Assembly: GCF_000813005.1 (NCBI RefSeq)
Contig: NZ_JSYP01000001.1
Coordinates: forward strand, 434,001-498,000
Length of the DNA: 64,000 nucleotides
Reading direction: 5' to 3'
From: Flavobacterium sp. KMS
Lineage (GTDB): Bacteria; Bacteroidota; Bacteroidia; Flavobacteriales; Flavobacteriaceae
Shown one piece after another: positions 4,334 through 47,606 of this stretch. Every line of letters starts with the position of its first letter. The stretch's first letter is position 1. The position numbers and the translations under genes were made by a program. The notes beneath the pieces are model-generated. The model had not been told where the DNA came from. It saw only the letters and a program-made list of their open reading frames with translations, and did not search any database.

Positions 4334-4337
4334 ATTA

Positions 4338-7300: not shown

Positions 7301-9422
7301 CTAAATCGGCAATATCAAGGTTTAATTTTAATTTTACTGCGGGATATTTATCATCAAATCTTCCGTTGGCAACTAAGCCAAAATTTAAATTTGGGTCTTT
7401 AATTCCTGAATTTATTGCAAAGGCTCCTTTGGCAATCTCTCCCTTTAAAGTTAAATCTCGGTAGGTATATTTATTAAATACTGCTTTTTGTACAATTCCG
7501 TCCAAATGCGCTTGTGCCGTTTTAGGATCTAGTCCCTTTCCTTTTACTTTTGCTTTAAGCGTAATTTTTCCTATTGAATCGTTTTTTATTAGTTTACCTA
7601 AATCAAATTCTGAAAAAGAAATCGTAGCATCATATTTCTCAGATTTTTTAATTCGTTGATCAAACAAAGCATCTACTTTGGCATTTCCGAAACTACTATT
7701 TAGCGCCAAATTAGTTTTAAAATTATTGACTGAACCTTTAAATTTTCCTTTTAAATTAAATTGAGAAGGTAACTGTATACTTTTTGGGATTGTTCCTGCT
7801 GGCACAAACGAAATCACATCTTTAGATGTACTCACAAAGTTTTTTATATCCAAATCATAATATGCCTTTTTTGCATCTGGCATTCCTGTAATTTTTCCTG
7901 AAATAGAAACTTTTGTCGTTCCTATTCCGCTCATTTCAAACTGCGGAATTGCTAAATCCTTTACTTTCCCACTTACTCGTGCATTTATAGATAAAACAGC
8001 ATTGGGATTGCTCTTAAACGGATTGCTATTTTGTAAATCTGGAACAAAAAGCAATATGTCTTTAAATCCAACTTTTGCCTGACTTAAATTGGCGTCTAAA
8101 CTTAGATTATCAATATTTTTAGTTACCGCCGCGATTGATGGATAGGCAACTTTAATATTCTTTTGCAATAAAGTTTGTGGTGTTTTTAAATACAGATTAT
8201 CCAAATATGCATTTTTAGGCCCATAGAAAAAATCTGTTTTAAACGTTTGGATTTTAAGTCCGCTTTTTTCATTTACTGTAAATGATTTTACGCTCCCCGA
8301 AATGGTATCATTTGCATAATACAACTTTTCGGCTTTTAAATTAAAATTATCCAAATCAAGATGCCCATAATCAATCCCTTTCTTAGTAGGTTTTGATTGC
8401 ATGTCATCATATTTAAAAGCGATATTTTGTATATCGGCTGACTTCAGTTTTAACTTCCAGCCTGCTTGAGGAATTGCTGTAGAATCTAAATCGGGCGTTT
8501 TAAGTTGTTTGTCTTTTATGCCTAATTGTAGATTTCCTTTTAGATCTTTTAGTTCGAAAGTATCAAAATCCAACAACTGATTATTTAAATCTAATCTATT
8601 AACCAGTAACTGTAATTTCCCCAGAGTTATTCCTGAAGCGAGTTTAGAATCTTTATTGTCATAAGAAATATCGATTTTAGACAAGTTGATTTTATTTAGT
8701 TTTAAATTAAAATCTGGTCTTTTCGAAATTGTATCTACGGTTTTTACTGATGTTTCGGCTATCTTCTCTACTAAATCCTGGTTTAGAACTAATTTTAATC
8801 CGTTTAAATCTATATTCGGAATATCAAAATCCATTTTATCCAAATCGAATTTTTTAAATTCTGTTTGAAAATTAGCTAGTTTAACACGAACATCATTTTT
8901 GGACAAATCATCTTTAAAATTAAAATTGATTTTATCCAAATTGATTTTAACTACCGATATTTTAAAAGGTTTACTATTGGGATCTGCAAGTTCTGGTTCT
9001 TTGGAAGCAAATGCTGCAATTATATAATCGAAATTAAAAACTCCGTCTTTGTTTCTGGAAATATTTGCAGTTGTATTTTCAAGTGAAATAGAATTTATTT
9101 CTACTTCGCTACTTATGAGTTTAAACAAATCAATGTCTATCTCTAATCGTTTTCCGCTAAGTAAAGTATCTTTCTTTTGATCTTCAAAATAAAAACCTTC
9201 TAATACGATTTCTTTAGGAAAATTAATGGCAATTCTATCTAAAGCTACTTTGGTTCTTATTTTTTTTTGCAAATAAGTAATTGCCTTATCCTTGGCGTAG
9301 TTTTGTACTGCCGGAACCTGAATTAAAATTGTAATTAATAACAATAATGTTACTAATGTAATGACGCACCAAAGTAGCACTCGAAGTATTTTTTTTAGAA
9401 AAGAAATTCGTTTCTTATTCAT
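4338..9422 (-). CDS. tamB: translocation and assembly module protein TamB
   Basis: A very large (1694 aa) AsmA/TamB-type protein. A single N-terminal anchor (about residues 12-33) follows a basic start, with a long repetitive beta-rich body of the kind that forms a hydrophobic groove across the periplasm. The C-terminal TamB/DUF490 domain is recognisable from about residue 1250 to 1620 (for example EGAYEMSFNMIRRKFDIQKG and FALLLLNRFVG). The protein ends in an unusual Lys/Glu-rich tail (EKEKELIKKEKIRKEKDKQ) that may be helical. It pairs with the downstream TamL. By analogy with E. coli TamAB, the pair is inferred to act in outer-membrane protein or lipid transport. Confidence 0.9.
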   Translation of the reverse strand: MNKKRISFLKKILRVLLWCVITLVTLLLLITILIQVPAVQNYAKDKAITYLQKKIRTKVALDRIAINFPKEIVLEGFYFEDQKKDTLLSGKRLEIDIDLFKLISSEVEINSISLENTTANISRNKDGVFNFDYIIAAFASKEPELADPNSKPFKISVVKINLDKINFNFKDDLSKNDVRVKLANFQTEFKKFDLDKMDFDIPNIDLNGLKLVLNQDLVEKIAETSVKTVDTISKRPDFNLKLNKINLSKIDISYDNKDSKLASGITLGKLQLLVNRLDLNNQLLDFDTFELKDLKGNLQLGIKDKQLKTPDLDSTAIPQAGWKLKLKSADIQNIAFKYDDMQSKPTKKGIDYGHLDLDNFNLKAEKLYYANDTISGSVKSFTVNEKSGLKIQTFKTDFFYGPKNAYLDNLYLKTPQTLLQKNIKVAYPSIAAVTKNIDNLSLDANLSQAKVGFKDILLFVPDLQNSNPFKSNPNAVLSINARVSGKVKDLAIPQFEMSGIGTTKVSISGKITGMPDAKKAYYDLDIKNFVSTSKDVISFVPAGTIPKSIQLPSQFNLKGKFKGSVNNFKTNLALNSSFGNAKVDALFDQRIKKSEKYDATISFSEFDLGKLIKNDSIGKITLKAKVKGKGLDPKTAQAHLDGIVQKAVFNKYTYRDLTLKGEIAKGAFAINSGIKDPNLNFGLVANGRFDDKYPAVKLKLNLDIADLEKLNLHAGPMKIRGNVDADIANSNPDFLNGKVFLSNIQVLKEAQPIVLDSIKILAYADKEKNNIKVISQFLKAEVDGKYKLTTLSAALKKSLSKYMDLQVPKTKGDSDEQRLTFNLSVDSDPLLFQLVPKLKGLEPIKITGKYNNVVDSLEVKGTIPKIIYDTNTISDGKINIEAKENALEYQVSVAPVESGEFKIPFVSLSGKIENNILGYALQIKDKEDKEQYFIKGELIHENAKNTIKFDSDNFVLNYDKWNLDQENSIEFGDKRLYINKFFLSNSGNELKIQSQNGGKNAPLQVDFVNFKIETILNMVKKDELLMQGLIDGSVLVENVMTKPTFTSDLKIVDFAFKGESVGNIGIKVDNKTDNLLGANVTLTENGNDVNLTGNYKIDDSTFDFDIAINHLNIKSIQGFSMGNVTDGSGYLSGKFKITGNADLPKVNGELDFNDAAFKVTKFNSIYKIVNEKIRFENEAIVFDNFSVYDENKNELFVNGNINSKDFRNYDFALTIKADQFRAIHSTEADNDLFYGDLSLDANLNIKGTLDNPVVGGNIKINEDTKFTVVMPQSDPSIADREGIVEFVNEDNLLLKQTAAMESKLNQSKLIGMDVSVAISIDKKAELTLVIDKGNGDYLRLLGEADLIGGIDPSGKTTLTGKYEFSEGAYEMSFNMIRRKFDIQKGSYILWTGEPTMANLNLTAIYKVNTAPIDLLGNQLGTIPAAEKNTYKQKIPFQTLLKMNGELMKPEISFDIVLPDGNYDVSSDIVTKSQARLQQLRQEPSELNKQVFALLLLNRFVGENPFASESGGTSAESMARQSVSKILSDQLNNLAGDLISGVQLEFDLESTDDYTSGTKQNKTDLNVGVSKKLLNDRLKVTIGSSFGLEGQDNNEQDTNIAGDVAIDYQLTKDGRYMVRAYRKNQYQVAVEGQVVETGVAFIITMNYNKFRELFHRSEKEKELIKKEKIRKEKDKQKEKEEKKKEELDNEQEQKT

Positions 9423-34349: not shown

Positions 34350-34422
34350 CGCGGGATAGAGCAGTAGGCAGCTCGTCGGGCTCATAACCCGAAGGTCACA
34401 GGTTCGAGTCCTGTTCCCGCTA
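34350..34422 (+). tRNA. tRNA-fMet (CAT), initiator
   Basis: A full cloverleaf of 73 bases. Acceptor CGCGGGA pairs with TCCCGCT except for a 1-72 mismatch. The D stem is GAGC/GCTC, the anticodon stem-loop TCGGG-CTCATAA-CCCGA and the T arm ACAGG-TTCGAGT-CCTGT. The unpaired 1-72 position and the three consecutive G-C pairs at the base of the anticodon stem are the known marks of initiator tRNA. No CCA is encoded. Its 3' part recurs in degraded form at 34475, 41614 and 47543, indicating use as an integration site. Confidence 0.95.
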
Positions 34423-34430
34423 CTAAAACA

Positions 34431-34461
34431 AAAGCTTCAGAGAAATCTGGAGCTTTTTTTT
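34431..34461 (+). terminator. terminator of the initiator tRNA
   Basis: AAGCTTCAGAGAAATCTGGAGC forms a stem with one G-A mismatch, followed by eight T. Confidence 0.8.
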
Positions 34462-34474
34462 ATTACAAAATCTA

Positions 34475-34530
34475 AGCTATCAGGCTCATATCCGCCGCGT
34501 CGGACACAGATTCGAGTCCTGCTCACGCTA
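34475..34530 (+). pseudogene. degraded copy of the 3' two-thirds of tRNA-fMet
   Basis: The stretch aligns with the tRNA from the D stem to base 73: AGCT, then GGCTCATA of the anticodon loop, ATTCGAGTCCTG of the T arm and CGCTA of the acceptor end, followed by CTAAGACA and another AAGCTTCAG terminator. The anticodon stem and T stem no longer pair properly and the 5' acceptor strand is missing, so it cannot make a tRNA. It is best explained as a decayed junction from an earlier integration or duplication at the tRNA 3' end. Confidence 0.7.
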
Positions 34531-34538
34531 CTAAGACA

Positions 34539-34568
34539 AAAGCTTCAGATTTCTCTGAAGCTTTTTTT
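34539..34568 (+). terminator. terminator copy after the tRNA remnant
   Basis: AAGCTTCAGATTTCTCTGAAGCTT forms a near-perfect stem followed by T7. It is a duplicate of the tRNA terminator. Confidence 0.75.
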
Positions 34569-34640
34569 ATTTTCCCCCTCTTTGTCAACATCTCGTTGCG
34601 TTCACGAACGGGATGCTCACGCCAGCAGGGGATTTAACTT

Positions 34641-36733: not shown

Positions 36734-39700
36734 TTATAGAGAAATTATTGGTAGTTTCCATCCAGTACTCCATTCATAAGGGTCAAGAACTACTATTCTA
36801 CCTTCAGCAGTGTAGTGTATTCCGTCTGATTCAGTTAGTTCAGTATCATCTACTGGTGGATCAACAATACCAGCTTCAAACTTGGCACCTATTACAAATC
36901 CTTCAAATTTCATTTCTGGTTCGATATAAATACTATCTTTATCAGCTTTGGTAACGCATTCTACAGATATCCCACTAGTCATTTCCACTTCAAGACCAGC
37001 GTATAATTTTCTTTTAACAAAACCTAAATATGCAACAGTTCCGTTACCTTTTATTTTTCCGGAAAGTGTCATCATTACTTTACCACCAACTTTACAAGGA
37101 GAATCATCGTCGTCTTTCATTAATCGCTCACTATATTTACTGCCCTCAGCGGTATTTATAGTTCCTTTCAGTGCACCACTAATTTCTGACGTTATAATTA
37201 GATCAAGATCAATGTCAAAATTGTCTCCAAGTGCTTCGTCTAAAATGTCTAACGTTGCTACTACAGCTAGAACAACAGGATGATTTATTTTGTATAACAA
37301 TTGATAAACATCATACTTGATTTCAAATCCAAAAAGAGGGTCAAAATCTATAGCGCCTTCTATCATTGTGCCCATTACTGGAGTATATAAATCTTTTGGA
37401 GGGTCAGCATACCAACTTACCGATACTCCCACACTTGGTGGGATAAACTCAAAACTCCAATTACTCTTTTTTGTTGCTTTACTTTTTTCTAATTTTTCTT
37501 TTAATCTATTTGATCTAGCACTTGTTTTACTGTTTCCTTTAGGAGAATTTTGAGTAGTTTTGTCGTTTGTACCATTAAAGATACTTTCAATCAAATCTTT
37601 AATATTGCCTATTTTTTTTAAGAAATCGGTTATTTCGGGCATGCCTGATGATAGCTCTAAAGCTTGGTGAGGACGATCAAACTCACATATGAGCGAAAAC
37701 TCACAATCAATTAGCCCTAAGTTTGTAGTGTTGCTAATCATGTGCGAAGCCTGGCTTTTATAGGACTGTTTTCTTTTTGCTTTAGCTTTAGCTTTTTTTG
37801 CTTTAAGTTTTGCTTCTTTTAGTTTTTTGCGTTTCTTTTTTTCATCAGAATCAAGGTTCTCAGATTTTGCCTTTAATTTTTTTAGATCATCTTTTGCTTC
37901 CAGTTCTTTAAGTTTCCATTTATCGTGATAGATATCTCGCAACTTATTAAATTCTTCACCATCATAGTTAAACGCTAATTGCAATGTCCACTTAGTATCA
38001 GGATAAACCATAATATCTAAAGGTATATCAGGACAGCATGTATGTAAGTTAACAGTGTATTTTTGTGCTAAACTTTCAGTATTCGGCCATAAAGTTTGCA
38101 GTAATCCACGTAATGCGCTGACTTTTTTTCCATTTGTAAAGTCATAACCTACCTGTAATTCTAATTTTTCATCTGTTGGGGGCTGCAAAACAAAAGGCTT
38201 ATGCTCTTCTAAAACTTTAAAAGAGGCTTGCGATTTTAGAGATGAAATACCATTTATAAATTTAAAACTGTTTGTAATAATACTTTCATCAGAACCATGA
38301 TTTTCAGCTTCTACATTAGGGTTTTCTTTTGAAACACTGTTGCTTTTATACTCTGCTAATCTCCATTTTTCGCTTTTTTTGCCTTTACCGTTTTCAATTA
38401 ATTTTTCAATTTTAGAAATATCAATTACATGACCAGTATGTGTTTTAACGGGATCGTCAGCATAAATACATTCACTGGTTTGTAAACCCTCTAATTCTAC
38501 TGTAAAATCTTTTCGAGCTTCTTTTATACCAGCTGTCAGAGGGAAAACTAATTTGGTTAAGTTTAGATTATTTTGAATATTATAGATTTCGATTTCAACC
38601 GTCTCTTCTCCTCTTGCATATTTACCAACAGCTCTGTTAAAGCGACATGGCAAAAAATTAGCAATTGAAGTTTCTATTGTACCCGCAACTAAAACTTTAT
38701 TTCCTTCGGGCTCTAAAGCAGTTTTTTCAGATGTCCTGCCTAATACTCTTACAAGAGGCTGGTTGTCAGAATTATTTATCTTTAAATATTGGTTGTTAAC
38801 CGCCGTGAATATATAGGCTTTTATCTCAACAGAATTGTCGGTACCTTGAGGATTGTTTGTTTCTTTATTAACAAAAAAAGCCCAAATAGGATCTACATAA
38901 ATATTTACAATGCACTTTTGAACTGATTTTTTTGTCGTTTCATTCTTGCTTTCATCAATTATCTTTAGAGTGTATAATTCACATTTAATAACTCGATCTT
39001 GTAAATCATTATGTACTTTTACTTCTCTCGTTAATGTTTTGTGAGATATAGGGGCATTTTTTTTATTAATTTCCTCTTTAGGTCTGGGTACTTTTTGATA
39101 TACGCCGTTATCTTTTTCAAATAAAGGTAAATCTTCATCTTCAAATTGTACATCATGAAGATTAATTAGTATTTCATCTCCATATAACCCTTCCGTATAG
39201 ATATGAAGTTGTATTGTTTCTCCATATTTGACATCTCCCTTTATGATGGCTCCATCATTGTTCGATGAATACTTTCTCCATTCATAACCAATCACTTTTG
39301 GAGTTGCTTTTCCTGACACAAAAAGCCCTTTTTTAGGATTACCTGTTGGAGAGCTAACTCCATATATGTAGGGCTCTAACCAAGCAACTGCATTACCACT
39401 GTAAATTGCTGGAAGGCTGAAATTTCCACCAGAGTATCCTTTACCAATAAATTTATTATAGTCGTTATCTTTAAATGCTAACTTGTTCTCTAGTAAACTC
39501 CATATCCAAACAGTATCATTTTTTTCAGTCTCTGATAATTCATTCCAATTTTCTATTACAGCATGAACAATAGGATTATTATTTCCGAGTTCATTTTTAC
39601 TATTTGGCTTAGAATTGGAATTTCCAATTTTAATAAATGAATTATTAGGATTGTAAATATCATTAATTCCAGGATTAACTTTTAATTTAAGTTTTGACAT
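36734..39700 (-). CDS. 988-residue putative T6SSiii effector
   Basis: A large protein without a signal peptide. It starts 4 bp after the DUF4280 PAAR-like gene and precedes two lipoproteins. Residues 1-570 are mainly beta-rich, with YEWRKYSSNNDGAIIKGDVK near 139-158, suggesting Ig-like or adhesive modules. Residues about 585-650 form an extreme Lys/Ala/Glu coiled coil (EAKLKAKKAKAKAKRKQS). Residues about 750-988 are a separate beta-rich region starting FEFIPPSVGVSVSWYADPPK. A Cys-Cys pair occurs near 555. No catalytic motif is recognised. Delivery on a PAAR-like tip is inferred from gene order; it could also be a structural extension of the tip. Confidence 0.65.
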   Translation of the reverse strand: MSKLKLKVNPGINDIYNPNNSFIKIGNSNSKPNSKNELGNNNPIVHAVIENWNELSETEKNDTVWIWSLLENKLAFKDNDYNKFIGKGYSGGNFSLPAIYSGNAVAWLEPYIYGVSSPTGNPKKGLFVSGKATPKVIGYEWRKYSSNNDGAIIKGDVKYGETIQLHIYTEGLYGDEILINLHDVQFEDEDLPLFEKDNGVYQKVPRPKEEINKKNAPISHKTLTREVKVHNDLQDRVIKCELYTLKIIDESKNETTKKSVQKCIVNIYVDPIWAFFVNKETNNPQGTDNSVEIKAYIFTAVNNQYLKINNSDNQPLVRVLGRTSEKTALEPEGNKVLVAGTIETSIANFLPCRFNRAVGKYARGEETVEIEIYNIQNNLNLTKLVFPLTAGIKEARKDFTVELEGLQTSECIYADDPVKTHTGHVIDISKIEKLIENGKGKKSEKWRLAEYKSNSVSKENPNVEAENHGSDESIITNSFKFINGISSLKSQASFKVLEEHKPFVLQPPTDEKLELQVGYDFTNGKKVSALRGLLQTLWPNTESLAQKYTVNLHTCCPDIPLDIMVYPDTKWTLQLAFNYDGEEFNKLRDIYHDKWKLKELEAKDDLKKLKAKSENLDSDEKKKRKKLKEAKLKAKKAKAKAKRKQSYKSQASHMISNTTNLGLIDCEFSLICEFDRPHQALELSSGMPEITDFLKKIGNIKDLIESIFNGTNDKTTQNSPKGNSKTSARSNRLKEKLEKSKATKKSNWSFEFIPPSVGVSVSWYADPPKDLYTPVMGTMIEGAIDFDPLFGFEIKYDVYQLLYKINHPVVLAVVATLDILDEALGDNFDIDLDLIITSEISGALKGTINTAEGSKYSERLMKDDDDSPCKVGGKVMMTLSGKIKGNGTVAYLGFVKRKLYAGLEVEMTSGISVECVTKADKDSIYIEPEMKFEGFVIGAKFEAGIVDPPVDDTELTESDGIHYTAEGRIVVLDPYEWSTGWKLPIISL

Positions 39701-39704
39701 AATA

Positions 39705-40196
39705 CTAATCTTTAATTGGCAGTTGTATATTTTTTGTTTCTAAATTACTCAGGTCTATTCCTGGGAATATTTGTGCATTTATTTCATTATCACTGTTTTT
39801 TACATTTTGTTTAGAAACTTCAGCAACTTGTCCATGATTTTTTATTGTGATGCAGTCAGCCCCTCCTATCGGACAAGTAGCTTTGCTATCTTCAAGTAAT
39901 ATTTTGCCTTTATTAGATAAAATTACTTTTTCATAAAAACCACTCCATTTTGTAATTACCGCCTGACAAGGCAGATAATCTCCGCTTCCGTTGGGCTGCA
40001 TTTTACATTTACCAAAAGTATTTTTTTCTAATGTCTGCCCAATTTCTTTGTCAGTGGCAATAAGTTTATCCTTTCCGTCTTTATCATTTGCATAATGCTT
40101 CGAATGTGTTTTAACTTTTAACTTATCAATTTTGGGTTCAACACTAAATTTACATTCACAGGTTGCTCCTTGAACAACAAAATGTTTTTCAGCCAT
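39705..40196 (-). CDS. DUF4280 PAAR-like protein
   Basis: A 163-residue protein of the DUF4280 family, the PAAR-like spike tip linked to the Bacteroidota type VI secretion system (T6SSiii). Recognised blocks are MAEKHFVVQGATCECKFS at the start, then KTHSKHYANDKDGKDKLIAT, FGKCKMQPNGSGDYLPCQAV and LLEDSKATCPIGGADCITIK. Repeated cysteines are consistent with metal binding at the tip. No T6SS sheath, tube or baseplate genes lie in the window, so this is an orphan module that would rely on an apparatus encoded elsewhere. Confidence 0.88.
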   Translation of the reverse strand: MAEKHFVVQGATCECKFSVEPKIDKLKVKTHSKHYANDKDGKDKLIATDKEIGQTLEKNTFGKCKMQPNGSGDYLPCQAVITKWSGFYEKVILSNKGKILLEDSKATCPIGGADCITIKNHGQVAEVSKQNVKNSDNEINAQIFPGIDLSNLETKNIQLPIKD

Positions 40197-40218
40197 AATA
40201 ATCTGGGATTAAATTATC

Positions 40219-41322
40219 TTATTTTTTAAACATCTTTAAGAATCTCTCTAATGAGCTTTTTCTTTGGAGAGTTGGGATTTCTTCTACAAATAGACTTATT
40301 TTTTCATGAGGCTCTTTTGAACTGGGAGTATATTTAAAATCTTTCAATCTTTTACTTATATCTATAATATCTTCGTCTCCTGCAGTTTGAAAGCTTTTAA
40401 ATTGTTCCTGTGCCCTACGTGCTCCAAGATCAGACTCAGGCCTAAAAAATTTATCATCTACCAAATGGTATAATGATATTTTTTGTGTTTTGTTTTTAGT
40501 ATCATTTATTTTAGTTTCATAAGTCGAAATAATCGAAAATATTGATCTGTCCTCTGCATAGAGTTTATATTTTACTTCCATTTCTGATTCTAAAGTTTTA
40601 TAGGCTATACCTTGTAATTTTGCCTTTGGATAATCAATTCCCTGTAAAACTTCTTCAATGGAACGCTCATCACTACTTTTGCCTTTAGCATTAATAATTA
40701 TTTTGTCTGTAGCAGTGTAATATTCCTCGATAGTATGATTTACATTATAACCAATAGACTGATTACCAAAAACAGGCGATTTCCATTTATATATTTGTGA
40801 TGTTTCCAGAGGATAGTCAATATAGAGAGGAGAAAAATATAGATGAAAAAACCAATCTTGATTTAACGACTTTTCAAGTTCTTGTTTGTTTAAAATTAGT
40901 TTATGGACTTTATTTAATATTTTATAAGCAACGTCACTATAATAATAAGAACCAAGATGTTCTTTTAATGAGCGCCATCTTTGTAGAATTTCATCATGAT
41001 TGTCGATCTCAGATAGTGTACCATCCTCAGCAGGTATAATTCTTATCGGAAAAATTGCTTTAGCACATTTTTCCAGCATTTGCTCTACTAATAGATCTGG
41101 TTCCTTATTGTCAACATAGACTTGTTTTCGGTTTATTTCAAAAATAAAATCATTATAACTATGGCGGGTTTTACAGTTTATGTCGACTTCGTAATGCACT
41201 TCTTTAATAAGTTTTTCATTTTCAAAATCTTGATACCTGTATCCGAATTTTCTTGTTTCATTAAAATTACTATGTTTTAACTCACGGTCTTTATAAAAAT
41301 TTATTTTTTCTAAACTGGGCAT
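40219..41322 (-). CDS. hypothetical protein, first gene of the DUF4280 module (putative adaptor)
   Basis: A 367-residue soluble protein without signal or membrane segments. It begins MPSLEKINFYKDRELKHSNF, has a middle region YNVNHTIEEYYTATDKIIIN and ends LQRKSSLERFLKMFKK. I do not recognise a family. It lies 22 bp upstream of the PAAR-like gene in the same operon, the place often held by adaptor or chaperone proteins that load effectors, which is the basis of the putative role. Upstream on the minus strand TACATTTA, one mismatch to the -7 element, lies in the AT-rich leader around 41350. Confidence 0.7.
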   Translation of the reverse strand: MPSLEKINFYKDRELKHSNFNETRKFGYRYQDFENEKLIKEVHYEVDINCKTRHSYNDFIFEINRKQVYVDNKEPDLLVEQMLEKCAKAIFPIRIIPAEDGTLSEIDNHDEILQRWRSLKEHLGSYYYSDVAYKILNKVHKLILNKQELEKSLNQDWFFHLYFSPLYIDYPLETSQIYKWKSPVFGNQSIGYNVNHTIEEYYTATDKIIINAKGKSSDERSIEEVLQGIDYPKAKLQGIAYKTLESEMEVKYKLYAEDRSIFSIISTYETKINDTKNKTQKISLYHLVDDKFFRPESDLGARRAQEQFKSFQTAGDEDIIDISKRLKDFKYTPSSKEPHEKISLFVEEIPTLQRKSSLERFLKMFKK

Positions 41323-41613: not shown

Positions 41614-41661
41614 TTCCCGCTACTAAGACAAAAAGCTTCAGATTTCTCTGAAGCTTTTTTT
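41614..41661 (+). other. remnant of the tRNA-fMet 3' end plus terminator (putative attachment scar)
   Basis: TTCCCGCTACTAAGACA at 41614-41630 repeats the last acceptor bases of the initiator tRNA and its downstream flank, and AAGCTTCAGATTTCTCTGAAGC then T7 repeats its terminator. It sits between the DUF4280 module and the cassette array, as a junction between two integrated segments would. The rest of the 290 bp upstream (41323-41613) shows no gene. Confidence 0.6.
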
Positions 41662-41750: not shown

Positions 41751-41806
41751 CATCCTGAGGAACGAAAACACGAGTGATAGCGAACTGACGAAGCAATCTC
41801 CGCAAG
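41751..41806. repeat. REP-like repeat of CATCCTGAGGAACGAA type
   Basis: CATCCTGAGGAACGAA followed by GATAGCGAACTGACGAAGCAATCTC resembles the common Bacteroidota intergenic repeat containing CGAGGAACGAAGCAATCT. A related stretch is inserted in attC4 at about 43298-43323. The gap 41662-41955 has no other recognisable feature. Confidence 0.55.
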
Positions 41807-41955: not shown

Positions 41956-42732
41956 TTATTCTTCCAAGTATTCACAGTATTTTAAAAACAGATAATTATT
42001 ACTTTTAATTATTTCAAAGAATTTGTCGAATGCTGTTTCGTTAGTGTTGTATAATTTTGATAAATCTGAAATTAATTCTTTTGCTTTATTCTCTTCCAAT
42101 TTTTCATTTCTAAAAAAGCCTAAAAGTGAAGCACCTATTCCAAAAAGTTCAAAATTGTATTTTTCAAATAAGTGTTTTGCTAAAGCGTAATTTTCAAAAG
42201 GATTTAGGTCGCTTTCAAAATAACCATTCGGGAAACCGCAAATTCCTTCATATGGCTTTTCTACAGGAACAATTTTAAGAATTACCTGTTCATCTAAGTA
42301 ATCAAGTGGCGTTCGATTAACTTTCTCTAAAATTAAAATTTCGGCTTCGTCAATTGTTAATTTTCTTTCACAAACAGATGCGAAGTCAATACCTTTTGCT
42401 TGTTTCAATAAGTTCTCCTTTCTAATGAAAAACTCAGATGGTGTTGAAAGATAGCCCAAATGTTCGCCATCTTCAAAACACGATTTATCAAGCCCTGATA
42501 AGTCATATCCTTCTGTTTCGTCAAGATCATTTGAATTTATCGAATGTCCACTTGTATATTCAGCTTGCCCTAAATCATCAAGTGTCAAAATTATTGTCTT
42601 ATCAGAATTATTTTGTTTATAAGTCTGATAAATTTCAATTAGCTCATCGAAAGATTTTAGATTTTCGATTACAAAACTGTCAAATAAATTTTCCTCACTT
42701 GACTGATTCGATGTTAATGGTTGTATTTGCAT
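41956..42732 (-). CDS. hypothetical protein in cassette 6
   Basis: A 258-residue acidic soluble protein, not recognised. It begins MQIQPLTSNQSSEENLFDSF. The best-looking conserved block is PYEGICGFPNGYFESDLNPF followed by ENYALAKHLFEKYNFELFGI. It has no signal or membrane segment. The start lies 26 bp after a GTTACCT cassette-start heptamer, but no matching AGGTAAC is found after its stop codon, so the 3' end of this cassette has been lost. It is the last gene of the array. Confidence 0.65.
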   Translation of the reverse strand: MQIQPLTSNQSSEENLFDSFVIENLKSFDELIEIYQTYKQNNSDKTIILTLDDLGQAEYTSGHSINSNDLDETEGYDLSGLDKSCFEDGEHLGYLSTPSEFFIRKENLLKQAKGIDFASVCERKLTIDEAEILILEKVNRTPLDYLDEQVILKIVPVEKPYEGICGFPNGYFESDLNPFENYALAKHLFEKYNFELFGIGASLLGFFRNEKLEENKAKELISDLSKLYNTNETAFDKFFEIIKSNNYLFLKYCEYLEE

Positions 42733-42750
42733 AGTGTTTGTTTAAAATAG

Positions 42751-42769
42751 CAGGTAACCCCTTTTGGTT
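42751..42769 (-). repeat. collapsed cassette recombination site (attC5 remnant)
   Basis: On the minus strand TAACCAAAAGGGGTTACCTGC joins the stop of the cassette 5 gene to the GTTACCT start heptamer (42758-42752) of cassette 6. The ~130-bp palindrome seen at the other four junctions is missing. The position and the surviving heptamer indicate an internal deletion. Confidence 0.5.
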
Positions 42770-43211
42770 ATTTTTTTGAAGTCAAACCTACAGGAATCAT
42801 TAAACTGTCTTTATCGTACATATTTATGTAAATTCGTAGAGTATCATCCGTCATATCTTCCCAATATACTTTATAAGTATCAAGTGAACCTTTCATTCCT
42901 TTTTCTACATTAGGAGTTTCAAAAAGACAACAACTTCCTTCTCTGTAAAATCTAACTGTTTCTCCATTTGGACCTTTTAACGCACTTAAAAATCTTCGCT
43001 CATTTTTTGGCCCCATACTTTCGGAACTTCCTCCAACTTTAATTGGATTAGATTCTGAAAAGCCATAACTCTTATCAGAACTTTGATCAAGCAAGTGAAA
43101 GTAATCCAGTTCAACCTGTCCTTCTTTTTTTAAAAGCGCTTCTTCCAGTTGCTTTTGTTTATTATTACAAGACAGAAAGAATAATAAAATTAAGGAGAAA
43201 TATGTCTTCAT
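42768..43211 (-). CDS. hypothetical lipoprotein in cassette 5
   Basis: A 147-residue predicted lipoprotein from the chosen ATG: MKTYFSLILLFFLSCNNKQK with Cys15 at the lipobox. An upstream in-frame ATG at 43244 would add 11 residues encoded by the cassette-start sequence itself, so I reject it. The mature protein has blocks NPIKVGGSSESMGPKNERRF, FYREGSCCLFETPN and DTLRIYINMYDKDSLMIPVG. The Cys-Cys pair is notable. The function is unknown. The cassette start heptamer GTTAGCC lies 31 bp upstream. Confidence 0.72.
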   Translation of the reverse strand: MKTYFSLILLFFLSCNNKQKQLEEALLKKEGQVELDYFHLLDQSSDKSYGFSESNPIKVGGSSESMGPKNERRFLSALKGPNGETVRFYREGSCCLFETPNVEKGMKGSLDTYKVYWEDMTDDTLRIYINMYDKDSLMIPVGLTSKK

Positions 43212-43235
43212 AGAAAATCTTTTTTTTACAATGTT

Positions 43236-43394
43236 GGCTAACATTCTGGTACTACAGCAGGTTTGGGACTAAATTAAGCCATTATTCGAATTTGCCACCC
43301 GACCGATAGCGAACAGACCAAGCAAATCATCCCATATACAAAACAATTTTTCCACCAAGGCTATTGCCCAAATCCGTTGTAGTAGCTGTTACCT
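43236..43394 (-). repeat. attC-like site 4
   Basis: An imperfect palindrome of 159 bp. Outer heptamers are AGGTAAC (43394-43388, containing the stop codon of the cassette 4 gene) and GTTAGCC (43242-43236, opening cassette 5). Inner arms ACTACAGCAGGTTTGGG and CCCAAATCCGTTGTAGT pair. Sites 1, 3 and 4 are clearly related in sequence. This copy is longer because it holds a ~26-bp insert near 43298-43323 that resembles the REP-like repeat at 41751. Confidence 0.65.
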
Positions 43395-44243
43395 GCTGGC
43401 TTTTGTTATTGCTTCTTCAATACTTTTTAGAGCGTTTATTTCTGATTTCATCCATATTTCGCTATCATAACCATTAGCTATCAACCAGTCTTTTAACGTT
43501 TCCAAATCTCGTAAGTTATTTAAGTCGGATTGAGCGATAAAAAAAGAACAATATGCTATTTCATTTCTATCCCCAATATTTAACATAAATAAGTCTAAAA
43601 GAAACTTACCAGCTCTTGAAACAATCTCATTTTTAATATAAGGTGTCAACATTTTGTCAAATCCAAATGCGACAGACTTAATTAGTATATCTCGGTCGTC
43701 TTCATTCCAATTTATAATATCTTCTTTTAAATCTTCCCAATCTTTTTCAGAAAAACTATTAAGTTTATTTTGTATTTCGTGACTTCCACCACCCCAAGAC
43801 CAATAATCACTATCTACATATTCATTTTTTAATAAATAGTCATAAACTCCTAAAACTCTACAGTTTTGACTTTTAGTTTTTGAGTGTACTTTAAAATTCT
43901 TCTTCCATTTTTTTATTTCTGGGTGACAAAATCCGTTCTGCATTTTTGAATATAATTCTTGGGCTAATAGTCTTTTTTCATTATCGTACTTGACTTCAAA
44001 TTTTCCATCAATTCCGTAGGCAACACAATCAGATACAATATTTTGTTCCAATTCACTCCAATTAGAAAAATCATCAATAAGAGAATTCCAATCATTCTCA
44101 GAAAGTTCAATCAAAATTCTATGCAATTCTAAGTTCTCTTTTGATTCCCAAGTTTTAGATTCTATGTTATTTTTTACAAAAGAATATATCTTCAGAATAT
44201 TCTGATTTGAACTTTTAGAATTTGAAATTAGTTTTTCCGTCAT
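43389..44243 (-). CDS. hypothetical protein with two internal repeats, cassette 4
   Basis: A 284-residue acidic, Trp-rich soluble protein. Two homologous halves are visible: LSENDWNSLIDDFSNWSELE, then CVAYGIDGK in the first, and FSEKDWEDLKEDIINWNEDD, then SVAFGFDKM in the second. I do not know the family; such duplicated acidic proteins often act as immunity or inhibitor proteins, but that is speculation. The TAA stop lies inside the AGGTAAC heptamer of attC4, showing how tightly the gene fills its cassette. The start lies 22 bp after the GTTACCT heptamer. Confidence 0.7.
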   Translation of the reverse strand: MTEKLISNSKSSNQNILKIYSFVKNNIESKTWESKENLELHRILIELSENDWNSLIDDFSNWSELEQNIVSDCVAYGIDGKFEVKYDNEKRLLAQELYSKMQNGFCHPEIKKWKKNFKVHSKTKSQNCRVLGVYDYLLKNEYVDSDYWSWGGGSHEIQNKLNSFSEKDWEDLKEDIINWNEDDRDILIKSVAFGFDKMLTPYIKNEIVSRAGKFLLDLFMLNIGDRNEIAYCSFFIAQSDLNNLRDLETLKDWLIANGYDSEIWMKSEINALKSIEEAITKASR

Positions 44244-44258
44244 TTTGTTTAAGCTTGC

Positions 44259-44391
44259 AGGTAACGTTCTGGTACTACAGCGGGTTTGGGATTAAATTAA
44301 GCCCATTCTTCGGATTTGCCAAATCATTCCAAATACAAAACCATCTTTCCATTAAGCCAATTGCCCAAATCCGTTGTAGTGGCTGTTATGC
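44259..44391 (-). repeat. attC-like site 3
   Basis: 133 bp. Outer heptamers are GCATAAC (44391-44385, after the stop of cassette 3) and GTTACCT (44265-44259, opening cassette 4). Inner arms ACTACAGCGGGTTTGGG and CCCAAATCCGTTGTAGT pair at 15 of 17 positions. The body is very similar to site 1. Confidence 0.7.
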
Positions 44392-44401
44392 GTTCGGTTT
44401 T

Positions 44402-45007
44402 TTAATTACACCCAATTTTCGGAATACATAATTCTGGTGCAAGTCCACCAAAAAATGAAATTCCGATTTTAGTTTCTTCATTATCAAAATATAGAATGTT
44501 TTTTTCAATACATTTTGGCAAATCATAAGGCATCGCTAAATCATAAATTATAATTTGATTATTTTTTTTGTTAATAAAAGCAACTTCACTTCTTCCTCGT
44601 GGTGATAACATTTGACCAATTCCAAAAACATGAAAATTTGTTATTACGTGATAAGAGTCTTCTTTATTTAAGTCGCTTATTATTCCTAAATATTTTATTT
44701 CAGTTTTGGTTTGTTTTTCAGTTATCGTTTTAAGGATATTAATCTTTTTTGGATTTATAAATTTCTTGTAAAATTTAAGTTTGATTTCAGCAGATTTAAA
44801 CTTTTCATTTAGTAATTCACCTTTCATATTTTTATTAAAAACTAAAGTGTCATAAATAATTGCAAGAGATTTTTCTGCTACAATATTTTTAGATGATTTA
44901 ATTTCTGTTTTCGGTGATTTTTTTACAATCTCAATTTTCGGCTTATTGTTTTTTGAATTACAACTCAAAACTAAAATGGAAACAATTATGATTATAAAAT
45001 TATTCAC
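44402..45007 (-). CDS. hypothetical lipoprotein in cassette 3
   Basis: A 201-residue predicted lipoprotein: MNNFIIIIVSILVLSCNSKN, lipidated Cys16. A Lys-rich linker (KPKIEIVKKSPKTEIKSSKN) is followed by a compact domain with YHVITNFHVFGIGQMLSPRG and NQIIIYDLAMPYDLPKCIEK. The C-terminal GGLAPELCIPKIGCN holds two cysteines that might form a disulfide. The family is unknown. The stop lies 11 bp before the GCATAAC heptamer and the start 55 bp after a degenerate TTTATAC heptamer. Confidence 0.7.
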   Translation of the reverse strand: MNNFIIIIVSILVLSCNSKNNKPKIEIVKKSPKTEIKSSKNIVAEKSLAIIYDTLVFNKNMKGELLNEKFKSAEIKLKFYKKFINPKKINILKTITEKQTKTEIKYLGIISDLNKEDSYHVITNFHVFGIGQMLSPRGRSEVAFINKKNNQIIIYDLAMPYDLPKCIEKNILYFDNEETKIGISFFGGLAPELCIPKIGCN

Positions 45008-45061
45008 ATTGGCTTTAGTATTTTTTGTCTATTTTTTTCTGTAAGGTTCTGGCAAACTGAC

Positions 45062-45194
45062 GTATAAAGTTCTGGCGCTTGGCGTGGTTAGGGACTAAAG
45101 AGGCGGGATTTTTCGGTTAAACACAAATTTCCCAAACACAAAACCTATTTTAAATTAAGCTCAAAACCCCAATCTTGCCAAACGCCTGTTACCA
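45062..45194 (-). repeat. attC-like site 2, diverged
   Basis: 133 bp. Outer heptamers are TGGTAAC (45194-45188) and TTTATAC (45068-45062, with the usual G replaced by T). Inner arms GGCGCTTGGCGTGGTTAGGG and CCCCAATCTTGCCAAACGCC pair well. The arm sequence differs strongly from sites 1, 3 and 4, but the length and architecture are the same. Confidence 0.6.
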
Positions 45195-45202
45195 GTAGTT
45201 TT

Positions 45203-45874
45203 TTATTTTGCTAAACTTCGGATATAGTCATAAAAAAGTTGCCTGACTCCGCCTGGCAGTCTTAATTCGAGTAAAGAGTTTTGATTTAAATCGTCAGCTT
45301 TTTGTATGCACTTATAAACTAAATCCCTAAATTTCTCAACATTAATATGAGTAGTGTATTTATCACGGCTGCCATCAAGAGTTTCATAATTACCATCCCA
45401 TTTCTCTTCTGCTTTTTGGTAAACATTCTCAATTTCCTTGTTATAGCGAAATATGTAATGATTGTCTTTAAATTTGTCAATTGATGTCAAACTTACATTG
45501 TGTAAAAGCCCATTTCTTAATGCATAAAGAGTATTTATAAGTTCATCATCTTCGTCTATTTCGCCAAAATAGACTAAACACCTTTTTATACCGTTCTCAA
45601 ATTTTGGTTCAGCCTTGTCTTTTCTGTTATAACATATGCCTAATTGGTCTAGTATTGCACACAACGATAAATATGGCATTAACTGTTTGCTGTATTCAAA
45701 AGACAACGAGTGTTGAATATTCTGACATATAAAAGATAAAGTAGACCTTAGAATTACGTTTTTTACTGGAATAGGAGAATAGCTTGTAGATAAATGTATG
45801 AAAGCCATCTCTTCAAATGAGAGTTCATCTGTTTTTTTGCCGTATAATTTGTGTGGAGTAATGTTATATTCCAT
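45203..45874 (-). CDS. hypothetical protein with HEPN-like RxxxxH motif, cassette 2
   Basis: A 223-residue mostly helical soluble protein, beginning MEYNITPHKLYGKKTDELSF. The segment INTLYALRNGLLHNVSL contains Arg-x4-His within a helix, the signature spacing of HEPN nucleases, whose Arg and His form the active site. HEPN proteins act as toxins or in phage defence, or as inactive RNA-binding modules. The rest shows no named domain to me. The gene fills a cassette between GTTACCA (45936) and TGGTAAC (45194), an 8-base complementary pair. No antitoxin gene is adjacent within the cassette. Confidence 0.65.
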   Translation of the reverse strand: MEYNITPHKLYGKKTDELSFEEMAFIHLSTSYSPIPVKNVILRSTLSFICQNIQHSLSFEYSKQLMPYLSLCAILDQLGICYNRKDKAEPKFENGIKRCLVYFGEIDEDDELINTLYALRNGLLHNVSLTSIDKFKDNHYIFRYNKEIENVYQKAEEKWDGNYETLDGSRDKYTTHINVEKFRDLVYKCIQKADDLNQNSLLELRLPGGVRQLFYDYIRSLAK

Positions 45875-45929
45875 TTTTCATATAAAATAGTTTGTTCTTA
45901 ATTGTTCGATGTGTCCTTTTTAAAATTGC

Positions 45930-46063
45930 TGGTAACGTCCTGGTACTTCAGCGGGTTTGGTACTAAATTAAGCCCATTATTCGGATTTGCCAAATCATCC
46001 CAAATACAAAACCAACTTTCCCTTAAGCCTTATGCCTAAATCTGCTGTAGTAGCTGTTGTGCG
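45930..46063 (-). repeat. attC-like site 1
   Basis: 134 bp. Outer heptamers are GCACAAC (46063-46057, after the stop of cassette 1) and GTTACCA (45936-45930, opening cassette 2). Inner arms TACTTCAGCGGGTTTGG and CTAAATCTGCTGTAGTA pair imperfectly. By eye it is about 85-90% identical to site 3. Confidence 0.7.
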
Positions 46064-46072
46064 TTCGGTGTT

Positions 46073-46717
46073 TTAACAAGGAAACCACCAATGCATAAAG
46101 TATAATTTATCATTTTTAATAAATATTTTTATATGTCCGCTAGAGGCATTGTTTTCATCCTCTCTTAACTGAATTACTTCTAGTTTACCCTCTCCATAAA
46201 CATCCATCTTTCCAATATCTTTAGTTGCATTTGGAAAGAGCTTTTGAAGATCACTTATTGATGTAGTTGATTTTAATTTTATTCCTTTAAATAAAATAAA
46301 ATTACTTTTTGTAAATCTAAATTCATCCACGGCTACTTTGTCTTTTGAGTTTTCAAATCGTGAACCATCTTTATAAAGATATTTGTCTTCCGGATCAACA
46401 CTTCCATCTTCATTTTCAAAAATTGAATAGCAAGGTCCCTCTTCTAAGACTAATTTAATGCTGTCATTTTCTCCAAATACTTTTTCGAATTCGCTTAGAG
46501 TGAAATATCTTTTTAGTCTTCCATTAAAAAGAATATCTTTTTCATTCATTACTTCATTTTGGTAATCTTTAATATCAGTAGTGTCAGATTTATTTTTATT
46601 CTCAGAAATTGTCTTTTCTATTTTCTTTGAATTATCTATTTTTTTAACTGGTTTTATTTCCTTGTTTTTGCAGGAAATACTGAATAATAAAATTGATATA
46701 ATTACTAATATTTTCAT
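46073..46717 (-). CDS. hypothetical lipoprotein in cassette 1
   Basis: A 214-residue predicted lipoprotein: MKILVIISILLFSISCKNKE, lipidated Cys16, followed by a Lys-rich linker. The domain contains LKRYFTLSEFEKVFGENDSI, FRFTKSNFILFKGIKLKSTT and a C-terminal KLYFMHWWFPC. It is not a family I can name. It is the first gene of the array, 60-90 bp downstream of the truncated recombinase. Its cassette starts GTTGTGCGTT (46744) and ends with the complementary AACGCACAAC (46066-46057), the longest match of the array. Confidence 0.7.
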   Translation of the reverse strand: MKILVIISILLFSISCKNKEIKPVKKIDNSKKIEKTISENKNKSDTTDIKDYQNEVMNEKDILFNGRLKRYFTLSEFEKVFGENDSIKLVLEEGPCYSIFENEDGSVDPEDKYLYKDGSRFENSKDKVAVDEFRFTKSNFILFKGIKLKSTTSISDLQKLFPNATKDIGKMDVYGEGKLEVIQLREDENNASSGHIKIFIKNDKLYFMHWWFPC

Positions 46718-46737
46718 CTCTTTCTTTTTACACTAAC

Positions 46738-46790
46738 GCACAACTTGTGTATATCCCTGACAAATGTCAGTGCTTATTTATTTTCAAAAA
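46738..46790 (-). other. candidate attI-like recombination site
   Basis: Between the truncated recombinase and the first cassette lies GTTGTGC (46744-46738), preceded on the minus strand by CACTGACATTTGTCAGGGAT, which contains the palindrome CTGACATTTGTCAG. The location next to the recombinase stop, about 60 bp away, and at the boundary of the first cassette is where an integron primary site would lie. Confidence 0.45.
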
Positions 46791-46803
46791 TAGGATTTTT
46801 ATT

Positions 46804-47079
46804 TCATGAATCATCAAATGAGCTTTTTATTTGTAGAATACTTTTCGTACTAACATGAGTGTAAATTTTGGTGGTCTTGCTGCTTTGATGACCTAAAAAT
46901 TCTTGAATATATCTTAAATCAGTTCCGCTTTCAAGTAAATGAGTAGCAAAGCTATGGCGCAACCAATGCAAACTTATAGGTTTTGTTATGCTAACTTTTT
47001 TAAGTACTTGTTTTAATACACTTTGTAAACTTTTTTCAAGATAACTCAATTGAAATTTACAAAACAATACCTGATTCAC
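46804..47079 (-). pseudogene. truncated tyrosine recombinase/integrase (C-terminal catalytic part)
   Basis: The 91-codon frame carries the C-terminal half of a tyrosine recombinase: [20 protein letters not shown] (the His-x-x-Arg box), then [20 protein letters not shown] with the second His and the nucleophilic Tyr, ending [11 protein letters not shown] as in XerC/IntI-type enzymes. The N-terminal DNA-binding domain and first catalytic Arg are missing; the first ~16 residues look unrelated. No further recombinase sequence is found upstream, so it is a remnant. It lies directly upstream of the first cassette and in the same orientation. Confidence 0.8.
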
Positions 47080-47542: not shown

Positions 47543-47606
47543 CACAGGTTCGAGTCCTGTTCCTGTAAAATCAAAAAGCTACAGATTTCTCTGAAGCTTT
47601 TTTCGT
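47543..47606 (+). other. tRNA-fMet T-arm remnant plus terminator (putative distal attachment scar)
   Basis: CACAGGTTCGAGTCCTGTTC, at 47543, reproduces the complete T arm of the initiator tRNA at 34350 without any change. A decayed terminator copy (AGCTACAGATTTCTCTGAAGC then T6) follows. The acceptor end is altered to CTGTAAAAT. With the intact tRNA, it frames the 13-kb accessory region. Confidence 0.65.

Follow-up and report, generated by a model that had tools for sequence, protein, structure and literature searches.

In chromosomal integrons of the Vibrio type, an attI site lies beside the gene of the integrase, the tyrosine recombinase IntI, and is followed by tandem single-gene cassettes, mostly on one strand. 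In most integrons the integrase points away from its cassettes. The sites are imperfect palindromes with GTT and AAC boxes, the start of each cassette matches its own end, and the cargo is varied (described in part in the available text of PMC9668308 and PMC8618304). Here we analysed a window of 64,000 nucleotides from Flavobacterium sp. KMS (contig NZ_JSYP01000001.1, positions 434,001 to 498,000), which contains an array of this kind behind the remnant of an integrase gene, and we followed both into related genomes. Judged from sequence, we give a probability of roughly 0.88 to a gene-capture platform of the Bacteroidota that would be integron-like in its working, and of which the window holds a fossil copy.

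The new system is like IntI integrons in the features named for the Vibrio type, apart from the kind and direction of the integrase. Unlike them, it has an integrase that lacks the IntI insertion and carries some 65 extra N-terminal residues, integrase and cassettes are co-directed with attI past the integrase stop, the matching ends reach about 10 nt, and the 20-bp stem of the sites is ungapped and has an A.C mismatch that is nearly invariant.

Integrons or intI genes have been reported in Bacteroidetes/Bacteroidota (PMC9024848, PMC2426708 and PMC8618304, as far as their available parts go); the string "Flavobac" is absent from all three. With IntegronFinder 2.0, earlier In0 elements of Bacteroidetes were joined by one complete integron, in Salinibacter ruber (available part of PMC9024848), while the available part of another survey describes a selection of proteins with an additional domain or patch, which would exclude the new integrase family (PMC2426708). 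We found no description of the system in the accessible portion of the open-licence PubMed Central literature, preprints not included. The closest report there concerns Riemerella anatipestifer, in which aph(3')-IVb entered the chromosome without homology, with flanks of 27 bp (5') and 140 bp (3'); the 3' flank folds like an attC site, as here, but the available part of the report names no integrase, attI or array and leaves the mechanism open (PMC13148043). That fold and the NCBI protein name "site-specific tyrosine recombinase/integron integrase" can be regarded as prior hints.

The cassette array in the window

Six single-gene units follow one another on the minus strand from 46744 down to 41956 (Table 1). 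Palindromic sites of 133-159 bp close four of them (span 43236-46062); the fifth retains only a 19-nt site remnant, and the sixth has no 3' site. The original prediction had described these units as an integron-like array, and its positions for sites, heptamers and gene boundaries are correct except for the first end heptamer, GCACAAC, which lies one base lower (46062-46056). End heptamers generally stand just after the stop codon, as it had said, but in cassette 4 the stop lies inside the heptamer. On the minus strand, cassettes 1-4 start with GTTGTGCGTTA (46744), GTTACCAGCAA (45936), TTTATACGTCA (45068) and GTTACCTGCAA (44265), and the reverse complements of their own printed ends are GTTGTGCGTTC, GTTACCAGTAG, GTTATGCGTTC and GTTACCTGCTG. 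The predicted agreement of each start with its own end is seen over 10, 8 and 9 leading nucleotides in cassettes 1, 2 and 4, and at 7 of 10 positions in the degenerate cassette 3. The cargo is unrecognised, as had also been proposed: all six proteins stay below the cut-off of every Pfam and NCBIfam family, and three have lipoprotein-like starts, judged by eye.

Between 40001 and 48000 our site scanner found the four sites, whereas among 200 dinucleotide shuffles 191 contained none, seven contained one and two contained two. A single further match in the 64 kb, on the plus strand (34423-34576), resembles a tRNA-linked terminator palindrome. An Rfam scan of the window returned two weak unrelated rows only.

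The integrase remnant, which the original prediction had overlooked, is the last quarter of the gene, located 60 bp upstream of unit 1 on the same strand. It aligns to residues 269-346 of a 347-aa relative (locus L120), Arg204 and all preceding residues being lost, and a search of the next 5 kb revealed no convincing N-terminal remnant. Because the first three quarters of the integrase are gone, the array is immobile by its own integrase, and the window copy is a fossil. A covariance model built from the four window sites, a check suggested with the original prediction, gave 20 matches at E<=1 in the same genome, the window's four included, on contigs C1, C19 (minus strand), C15 (plus strand), C11 and C3. 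The IntI model had no hit over its cut-off in this genome, its strongest below being the window remnant, and the alignment of the integrase family found nothing at E<=1e-100. Given these scattered sites and the lack of an intact family integrase, as searched, we conclude that the genome holds several decaying arrays.

Table 1. Positions of the array features in the window (window numbering) and of the loci with tet(X) cassettes
Feature	Position	Strand	Remarks
Integrase 3' remnant (tyrosine recombinase)	46804..47079	-	Pfam Phage_integrase, 69.5 bits
TAnnTTTG promoter-like box	46785..46792	-	12 bp past integrase stop; candidate cassette promoter
attI-like core TATACACAAGTT	46742..46753	-	its GTT (46744) is the start of cassette 1
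Cassette 1	46056..46744	-	gene 46073-46717, 214 aa, lipoprotein-like start, no family
attC-like site A	45930..46062	-	tail is part of cassette 2
Cassette 2	45188..45936	-	gene 45203-45874, 223 aa, no family
attC-like site B	45062..45194	-	stem sequence unrelated to the others, layout same; right end degenerate
Cassette 3	44385..45068	-	gene 44402-45007, 201 aa, lipoprotein-like start, no family over cut-off
attC-like site C	44259..44391	-	
Cassette 4	43388..44265	-	gene 43389-44243, 284 aa, no family
attC-like site D	43236..43394	-	loop 26 nt longer than in A-C
Cassette 5	42752..43242	-	gene 42768-43211 (start chosen by eye)
Cassette 5 site remnant	42752-42770	-	AACC-AAAAG-GGGTTACC
Cassette 6	41956..42758	-	gene 41956-42732, 258 aa; begins GTTACCTGC; no 3' site
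tet(X) cassette locus L115	NZ_CP041297, locus 5986-8100		
tet(X) cassette locus L249	G476:C2:33001-53000		

Integrase, attI and attC-like sites are coupled in relatives

The remnant matched 140 of 249 congeneric genomes at E<=1e-20 (best 86% identical), a count that includes a more distant group of ~590-aa proteins. These distant recombinases are open frames of the same genus (G081:C13, G126:C3, G181:C9 and others) whose C-terminus is 50-61% identical. Among the 29 congeneric loci that we read, 22 have a frame of 344-347 aa from ATG, the other seven being cut by a contig end, broken or provided with a different start, and the first covariance model placed a site at E<=0.001 in 19. These fuller copies consist of an integrase of ~347 aa, the promoter box, attI ~95 bp past the stop and then cassettes with attC-like sites on the same strand.

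We then considered the best 80 of 574 loci fetched by integrase, which come from Flavobacterium species, Pedobacter, Paenimyroides, Kaistella and Pelobium and from metagenome-assembled genomes labelled Chitinophaga, Saprospiraceae, Lutibacter, Cytophagales and others. Around these integrases (233 kb scanned downstream and 524 kb upstream), 108 sites lie downstream on the gene strand, one downstream on the opposite strand and seven upstream (three and four), and at least one site is present in 38 of the 45 loci having at least 1.5 kb downstream. The scanner, which was tuned on sites already known and detects ungapped stems only, found 125 sites in 27 regions against two in one shuffle set; with the key mismatch unscored and both strands treated alike, it found 216 distinct sites against eight in shuffles of the 107 regions. 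An Rfam scan of three loci (L093, L104, L108) gave nothing at gathering score.

The motif TATAnRNNNGTT, corresponding to attI, occurs 50-130 bp past the integrase stop in 71 of 74 loci, where shuffles predict 0.66. TAnnTTTG, which we take to be the Bacteroidota -7 promoter box, lies within 65 bp of the stop, mostly at 12-16 bp, in 53 of 79 relatives (2.9 expected). In 43 of 73 loci (9.5 expected), a further copy, direct or inverted, of the five bases that precede the attI core lies between stop and core, as would be the case for integrase-binding repeats.

By the integrase search alone, at E<=1e-100, the family is present in 85 of 395 genomes sampled from the class, representing 52 of 196 genera, and in 30 of 247 sampled from the phylum.

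The integrase family is distinct from IntI

Four catalytic residues, R204, H294, R297 and Y329, are invariant in the 61 aligned integrases, which share the N-terminal extension of ~65 residues. We weighed whether the arrays could belong to an ordinary IntI integron, or be a cluster of attC sites lacking an integrase (CALIN) left by one, the IntI having been missed or lost. The GTTRRRY/RYYYAAC-type ends, attI, attC and cassettes fit the integron plan, and IntI over the TIGR02249 cut-off does occur in the phylum, in 70 of 247 genomes (of the 71 phylum genomes with an IntI match at E<=1e-60, one is labelled as the same class and 70 as the same phylum). The integrases themselves make this explanation improbable. 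The spacing between the two catalytic motifs is 59 residues in 57 of the 61 and 58 in one, three not being measured, whereas it is 100-101 in IntI1, VchIntIA and the phylum IntI L232 and 101 in L240 (these two being the readable ones among ten phylum IntI loci); three Xer chains have 60-66. The count that supplied the L240 value runs one residue higher for L232 and L240 than the count behind the 100-101 range. Aligned to the solved integron integrase 2a3v, the family integrase splits at the IntI insertion, while IntI1 aligns through it. Two proteins scored 211.7 and 200.3 bits against TIGR02249 (IntI), for which the cut-off is 265. Since the IntI-specific insertion is absent and the IntI cut-off is missed, we do not regard the system as an IntI integron. 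In a 48-row tree, IntI (3 rows, support 100/99) and the new family (40 rows, 99/94, among them the neighbours of tet(X3) and blaVEB-3) are separate sister groups, jointly supported at 100/89; this tree lacks nine of the ten phylum IntI loci and has long Xer branches, and a first tree of 28 rows agrees (91/94). A clade test on 18 rows was set aside, as class members of the family were missing from them and its p value has no useful meaning. Around the phylum IntI genes, no site of the new type was found in 10 loci of 2.6-3.9 kb. In some genomes of other classes (G639, G643, G759 and others), both an IntI over the cut-off and the new family are present.

The family also resembles the XerA type (NF040815, carrying the NCBI name quoted above) in score and in structure. 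Two proteins reached 220.5 and 223.1 bits against this model (cut-off 220), their best NCBIfam score. The top structural matches of the predicted integrase (mean pLDDT 82.4, pTM 0.52) are 4a8e and 5hxy: XerA 4a8e has Z 24.2 at a root-mean-square deviation (rmsd) of 9.2 over 251 aligned residues, compared with Z 17.5, rmsd 9.6 and 252 aligned for 2a3v. The difference is that these solved structures are of Xer recombinases (an archaeal one in 4a8e, according to its title), whereas here attI and cassette arrays are coupled to the integrase.

In the N-terminal domain, 17 of the 61 members have a DUF5710 match (best E 2.6e-4) and one has a HARP match (E 0.082), and the best Foldseek row is the HARP domain of SMARCAL1 (E 0.3). 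HARP is absent from the 50 VIA-align rows listed, among which the best has Z 5.0 and rmsd 3.1 over 62 aligned residues, with a human 40S-eIF2D entry. It is no more than an idea that the extension may be a structure-reading domain of the HARP kind. A profile match to a-iTHR-201 (E 0.0005) spans 20 residues and was not used.

To the integron-like reading of the original prediction we can now add the remnant of a linked recombinase, a site resembling attI, more sites elsewhere in this genome and more complete arrays in related genomes. Two points are amended: the copy in the window is itself a remnant, lacking a working integrase, and the integrase family does not have the feature that defines IntI.

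Probable gene capture on plasmids and the tet(X) cassette

Two Chryseobacterium plasmids (L113 and L116) are 86-90% identical over the integrase and most of the backbone read. Their homology extends as far as the final T of the attI GTT (13151 of L113 and 11151 of L116), with none beyond; L113 has two sites behind attI.

Of special interest is tet(X), a gene for tigecycline resistance. In the Acinetobacter indicus plasmid p80-1-2-tetX3, a truncated family recombinase of 221 aa (53.5% identical) precedes tet(X3). In the available parts of two papers, the gene before tet(X3) is called xerD and is placed in an ISCR2 or ISVsa3 unit (PMC8635130; PMC7494873). A Bacteroidia genome (G476) contains, among attC-like sites, a gene 86% identical to Tet(X3), and has a full-length family integrase on another contig. 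This cassette starts with GTTATGTGCC, which matches its own end over 10 nt (the end site, missed by the scanner, was read by eye). From the GTT that follows the Acinetobacter recombinase onwards, tet(X3) and the G476 cassette are homologous (86% over 1260 bp). On the 3' side of tet(X3) lie an AAC box and a 16-mer that, among the loci then compared, occurs otherwise only in the sites of L102, L104 and L172; these 16 nt match, but the distance to the AAC box is off by one base, so that an ungapped comparison of 22 nt has at most 12 identities. Tet(X) relatives in five other genomes of the 345 (44-64%, 57% in the Flavobacterium sp. KMS genome) showed no site in the accompanying loci, of which all but one were scanned. 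From these boundaries we read tet(X) as a cassette of the new system. The gene may have been caught at attI as a cassette and then carried, with the truncated integrase known as xerD, in an ISCR2 unit.

On a Klebsiella plasmid (L117; NZ_CP084417, locus 4142-5763), blaVEB-3 lies behind a shorter family recombinase (48.6%) and has a GTTAGCGGTAA start. As no attC-like site follows it, this case is only suggestive. A plasmid search with IntI1 as query returned near-identical IntI1 copies only.

A capture system that formerly worked and is now passively inherited, its arrays mostly fossils, would account for the remnant in the window, the many degenerate sites and the short or broken integrase frames of some congeners. 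We consider this still less probable than an IntI integron: the frame of 344-347 aa is kept in 22 of the 29 congeneric loci, end matches of 9-10 nt are common in long arrays, and different cassettes stand behind the homologous attI sites of the two plasmids.

Cassette ends, cargo and site structure

In its linear form, an integron cassette carries at its front the right outer box of the site present in the circle. The start of the cassette should for this reason match the cassette's own end. Among 93 cassettes, at least 6 nt past the GTT are identical between start and own end in 68, compared with seven for the end of the neighbour at the same site, and none of 10,000 permutations was as good. 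The match stops after GTT plus 7 nt in 49 of the 93. This count includes doubtful sites, some of them in L094, L097 and L098; with a stricter cut (sites scoring >=15), 61 of 83 cassettes match their own end and seven of 83 that of the neighbour.

We collected 136 distinct cassettes (median 721 bp), in which the longest open reading frame is forward in 120 and reverse in 16. Twelve pairs are common to different loci, at 67-88% DNA identity, and in none of the 10 comparable pairs are the neighbours shared, which does not suggest the fixed, vertically inherited gene order that would speak against mobility. The genes of window cassettes 2 and 4 were each found in two of the 249 congeneric genomes at E<=1e-10, the own genome included, the second occurrence of cassette 4 being a partial match of 30% in one genome; the other four window genes were compared only with the loci already collected.

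Among 107 cassette proteins, 82 Pfam families were matched, most in a single protein. They include MORN, HEAT, short-chain dehydrogenase, the beta-lactamase fold, EcoRI-type methylase, SLATT and 4TM effectors, GmrSD, an MFS transporter, and kinase and APH-like families. Several cassette proteins match PADLOC models, and the cargo includes candidate phage-defence and drug-modifying families.

Each site consists of a left box RYYYAAC, one spacer base, a 20-bp stem, a loop, five spacer bases and a GTTRRRY-like right box. The outer boxes at cassette ends are complementary, as an integron attC requires. In 39 aligned sites both sides change in 19 of the 20 stem pairs, and 80.3% of stem cells are paired compared with 30-39% when slid; this alignment was fitted to a related model and is biased towards the stem. 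The stem was read by hand, replacing an RNAalifold structure guess with a different set of pairs. At one stem position A stands opposite C in 34 of the 39 sites, and in 197 of 216 sites from the scan that ignored that position; on the other strand the mismatch reads as a T.G wobble. With this position unscored, folding favours the bottom strand in 166 of 216 sites and is tied in three (the corresponding count of the first scanner, 94 of 123 with three ties, is partly circular, as that scanner rewarded the mismatch). We infer that the wobble contributes to the selection of the bottom strand. At IntI sites it is the I2 helix that docks extrahelical bases (available part of PMC7790495). As regards extrahelical bases, the stems here pair in register with the A.C mismatches, the scanner being restricted to ungapped stems.

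Dispersed palindromic repeats (repetitive extragenic palindromes, or elements like miniature inverted-repeat transposable elements) lying between genes by chance would fit imperfect palindromes that recur in a genome and of which none is unusually stable, but they are very unlikely here in view of the 108 to 1 strand bias, the confinement downstream of the integrase in the loci scanned, the own-end matching, the breaks of homology at GTT and the unrelated stem sequences with one structure.

Surroundings of the array

An extra stretch of site D (43297-43325) resembles 41768-41796 beyond cassette 6 (83% over 29 nt), and is perhaps a short repeat that broke the site. A tRNA-Met gene lies at 34350-34423, and copies of its 3' end are found at 34505-34549, 41614-41642 and 47543-47563, one of them exact over 21 nt. 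These copies and a shared terminator palindrome flank the array on both sides, as if the region were an island inserted at the tRNA-Met gene. Adjoining the array, three consecutive genes (36734-41322) encode proteins of 988, 163 and 367 aa, a row that presumably resembles an effector or secretion cluster; the 367-aa protein matched no Pfam family.

A proposed gene-capture platform of Bacteroidota

In the integron-like platform that we favour, the family tyrosine recombinase would act on attI, ~95 bp behind its own stop, and also on the folded bottom strand of the attC-like sites. Circular single-gene cassettes would be inserted at the attI GTT, each bearing one half of its own site (GTT plus ~7 nt) at its front while the other half stays behind the stop codon. 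Because integrase and cassettes share one direction, the cassettes may be transcribed from the Bacteroidota-type promoter box between the integrase and attI. What the DNA shows in favour of this proposal is the anatomy, a coupled integrase, attI and attC, the strand bias, the own-end matching, the stem covariation, the same cassettes found in new contexts and the stop of homology at the attI GTT.

Circular intermediates, single-strand recombination and promoter activity are inferred. Several points weigh against the proposal. The extra helix of IntI is described as the innovation allowing single-strand cassette recombination, the insertion being what solves it for attC in IntI (available part of PMC7790495), and the integrase of the new family has no such insertion. 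The window's own integrase is broken. No site was found by the scanner in seven of the 45 loci with at least 1.5 kb downstream, nor in the stretch of the Chryseobacterium oryzae plasmid L116. The 12 shared cassette pairs belong to two families of mostly short cassettes and are a small sample, and the single homolog (54%) that the gene of window cassette 2 has in another Flavobacterium genome lacks flanking sites. Folding of single sites, recommended with the original prediction, did not distinguish them: in seven folds the energy was not clearly lower than in shuffles (z -0.99 to +1.19; sites A, B and C 1.19, 0.29 and 0.62 on the gene strand and 0.66, 0.21 and -0.99 on the other; site D -0.33). 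The signal of the array sits in position, orientation, covariation and end matching. In these respects the sites are related to gene boundaries, with the strand bias and the 68 of 93 own-end matches given above, and are not palindromes scattered alone.

Beyond this platform, we lean, with less assurance, towards a second lineage of integrons that lacks the I2 insertion and forms the sister group of the IntI integrons. It would be widespread in Bacteroidota, overlooked by IntI-based surveys, and the source from which tet(X), and perhaps more resistance genes, first came. The added N-terminal domain and the G.T-wobble stem perhaps stand in for the I2 insertion. Integrons are identified by IntI; a sister family running arrays without the extra helix would make the origin of integrons experimentally testable. 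A large pool of exchangeable genes of the Bacteroidota may have passed as ordinary chromosome, given the share of class genomes that carry the integrase (85 of 395). If this is true, other resistance genes of the same origin may later have reached Acinetobacter and Enterobacteriaceae.

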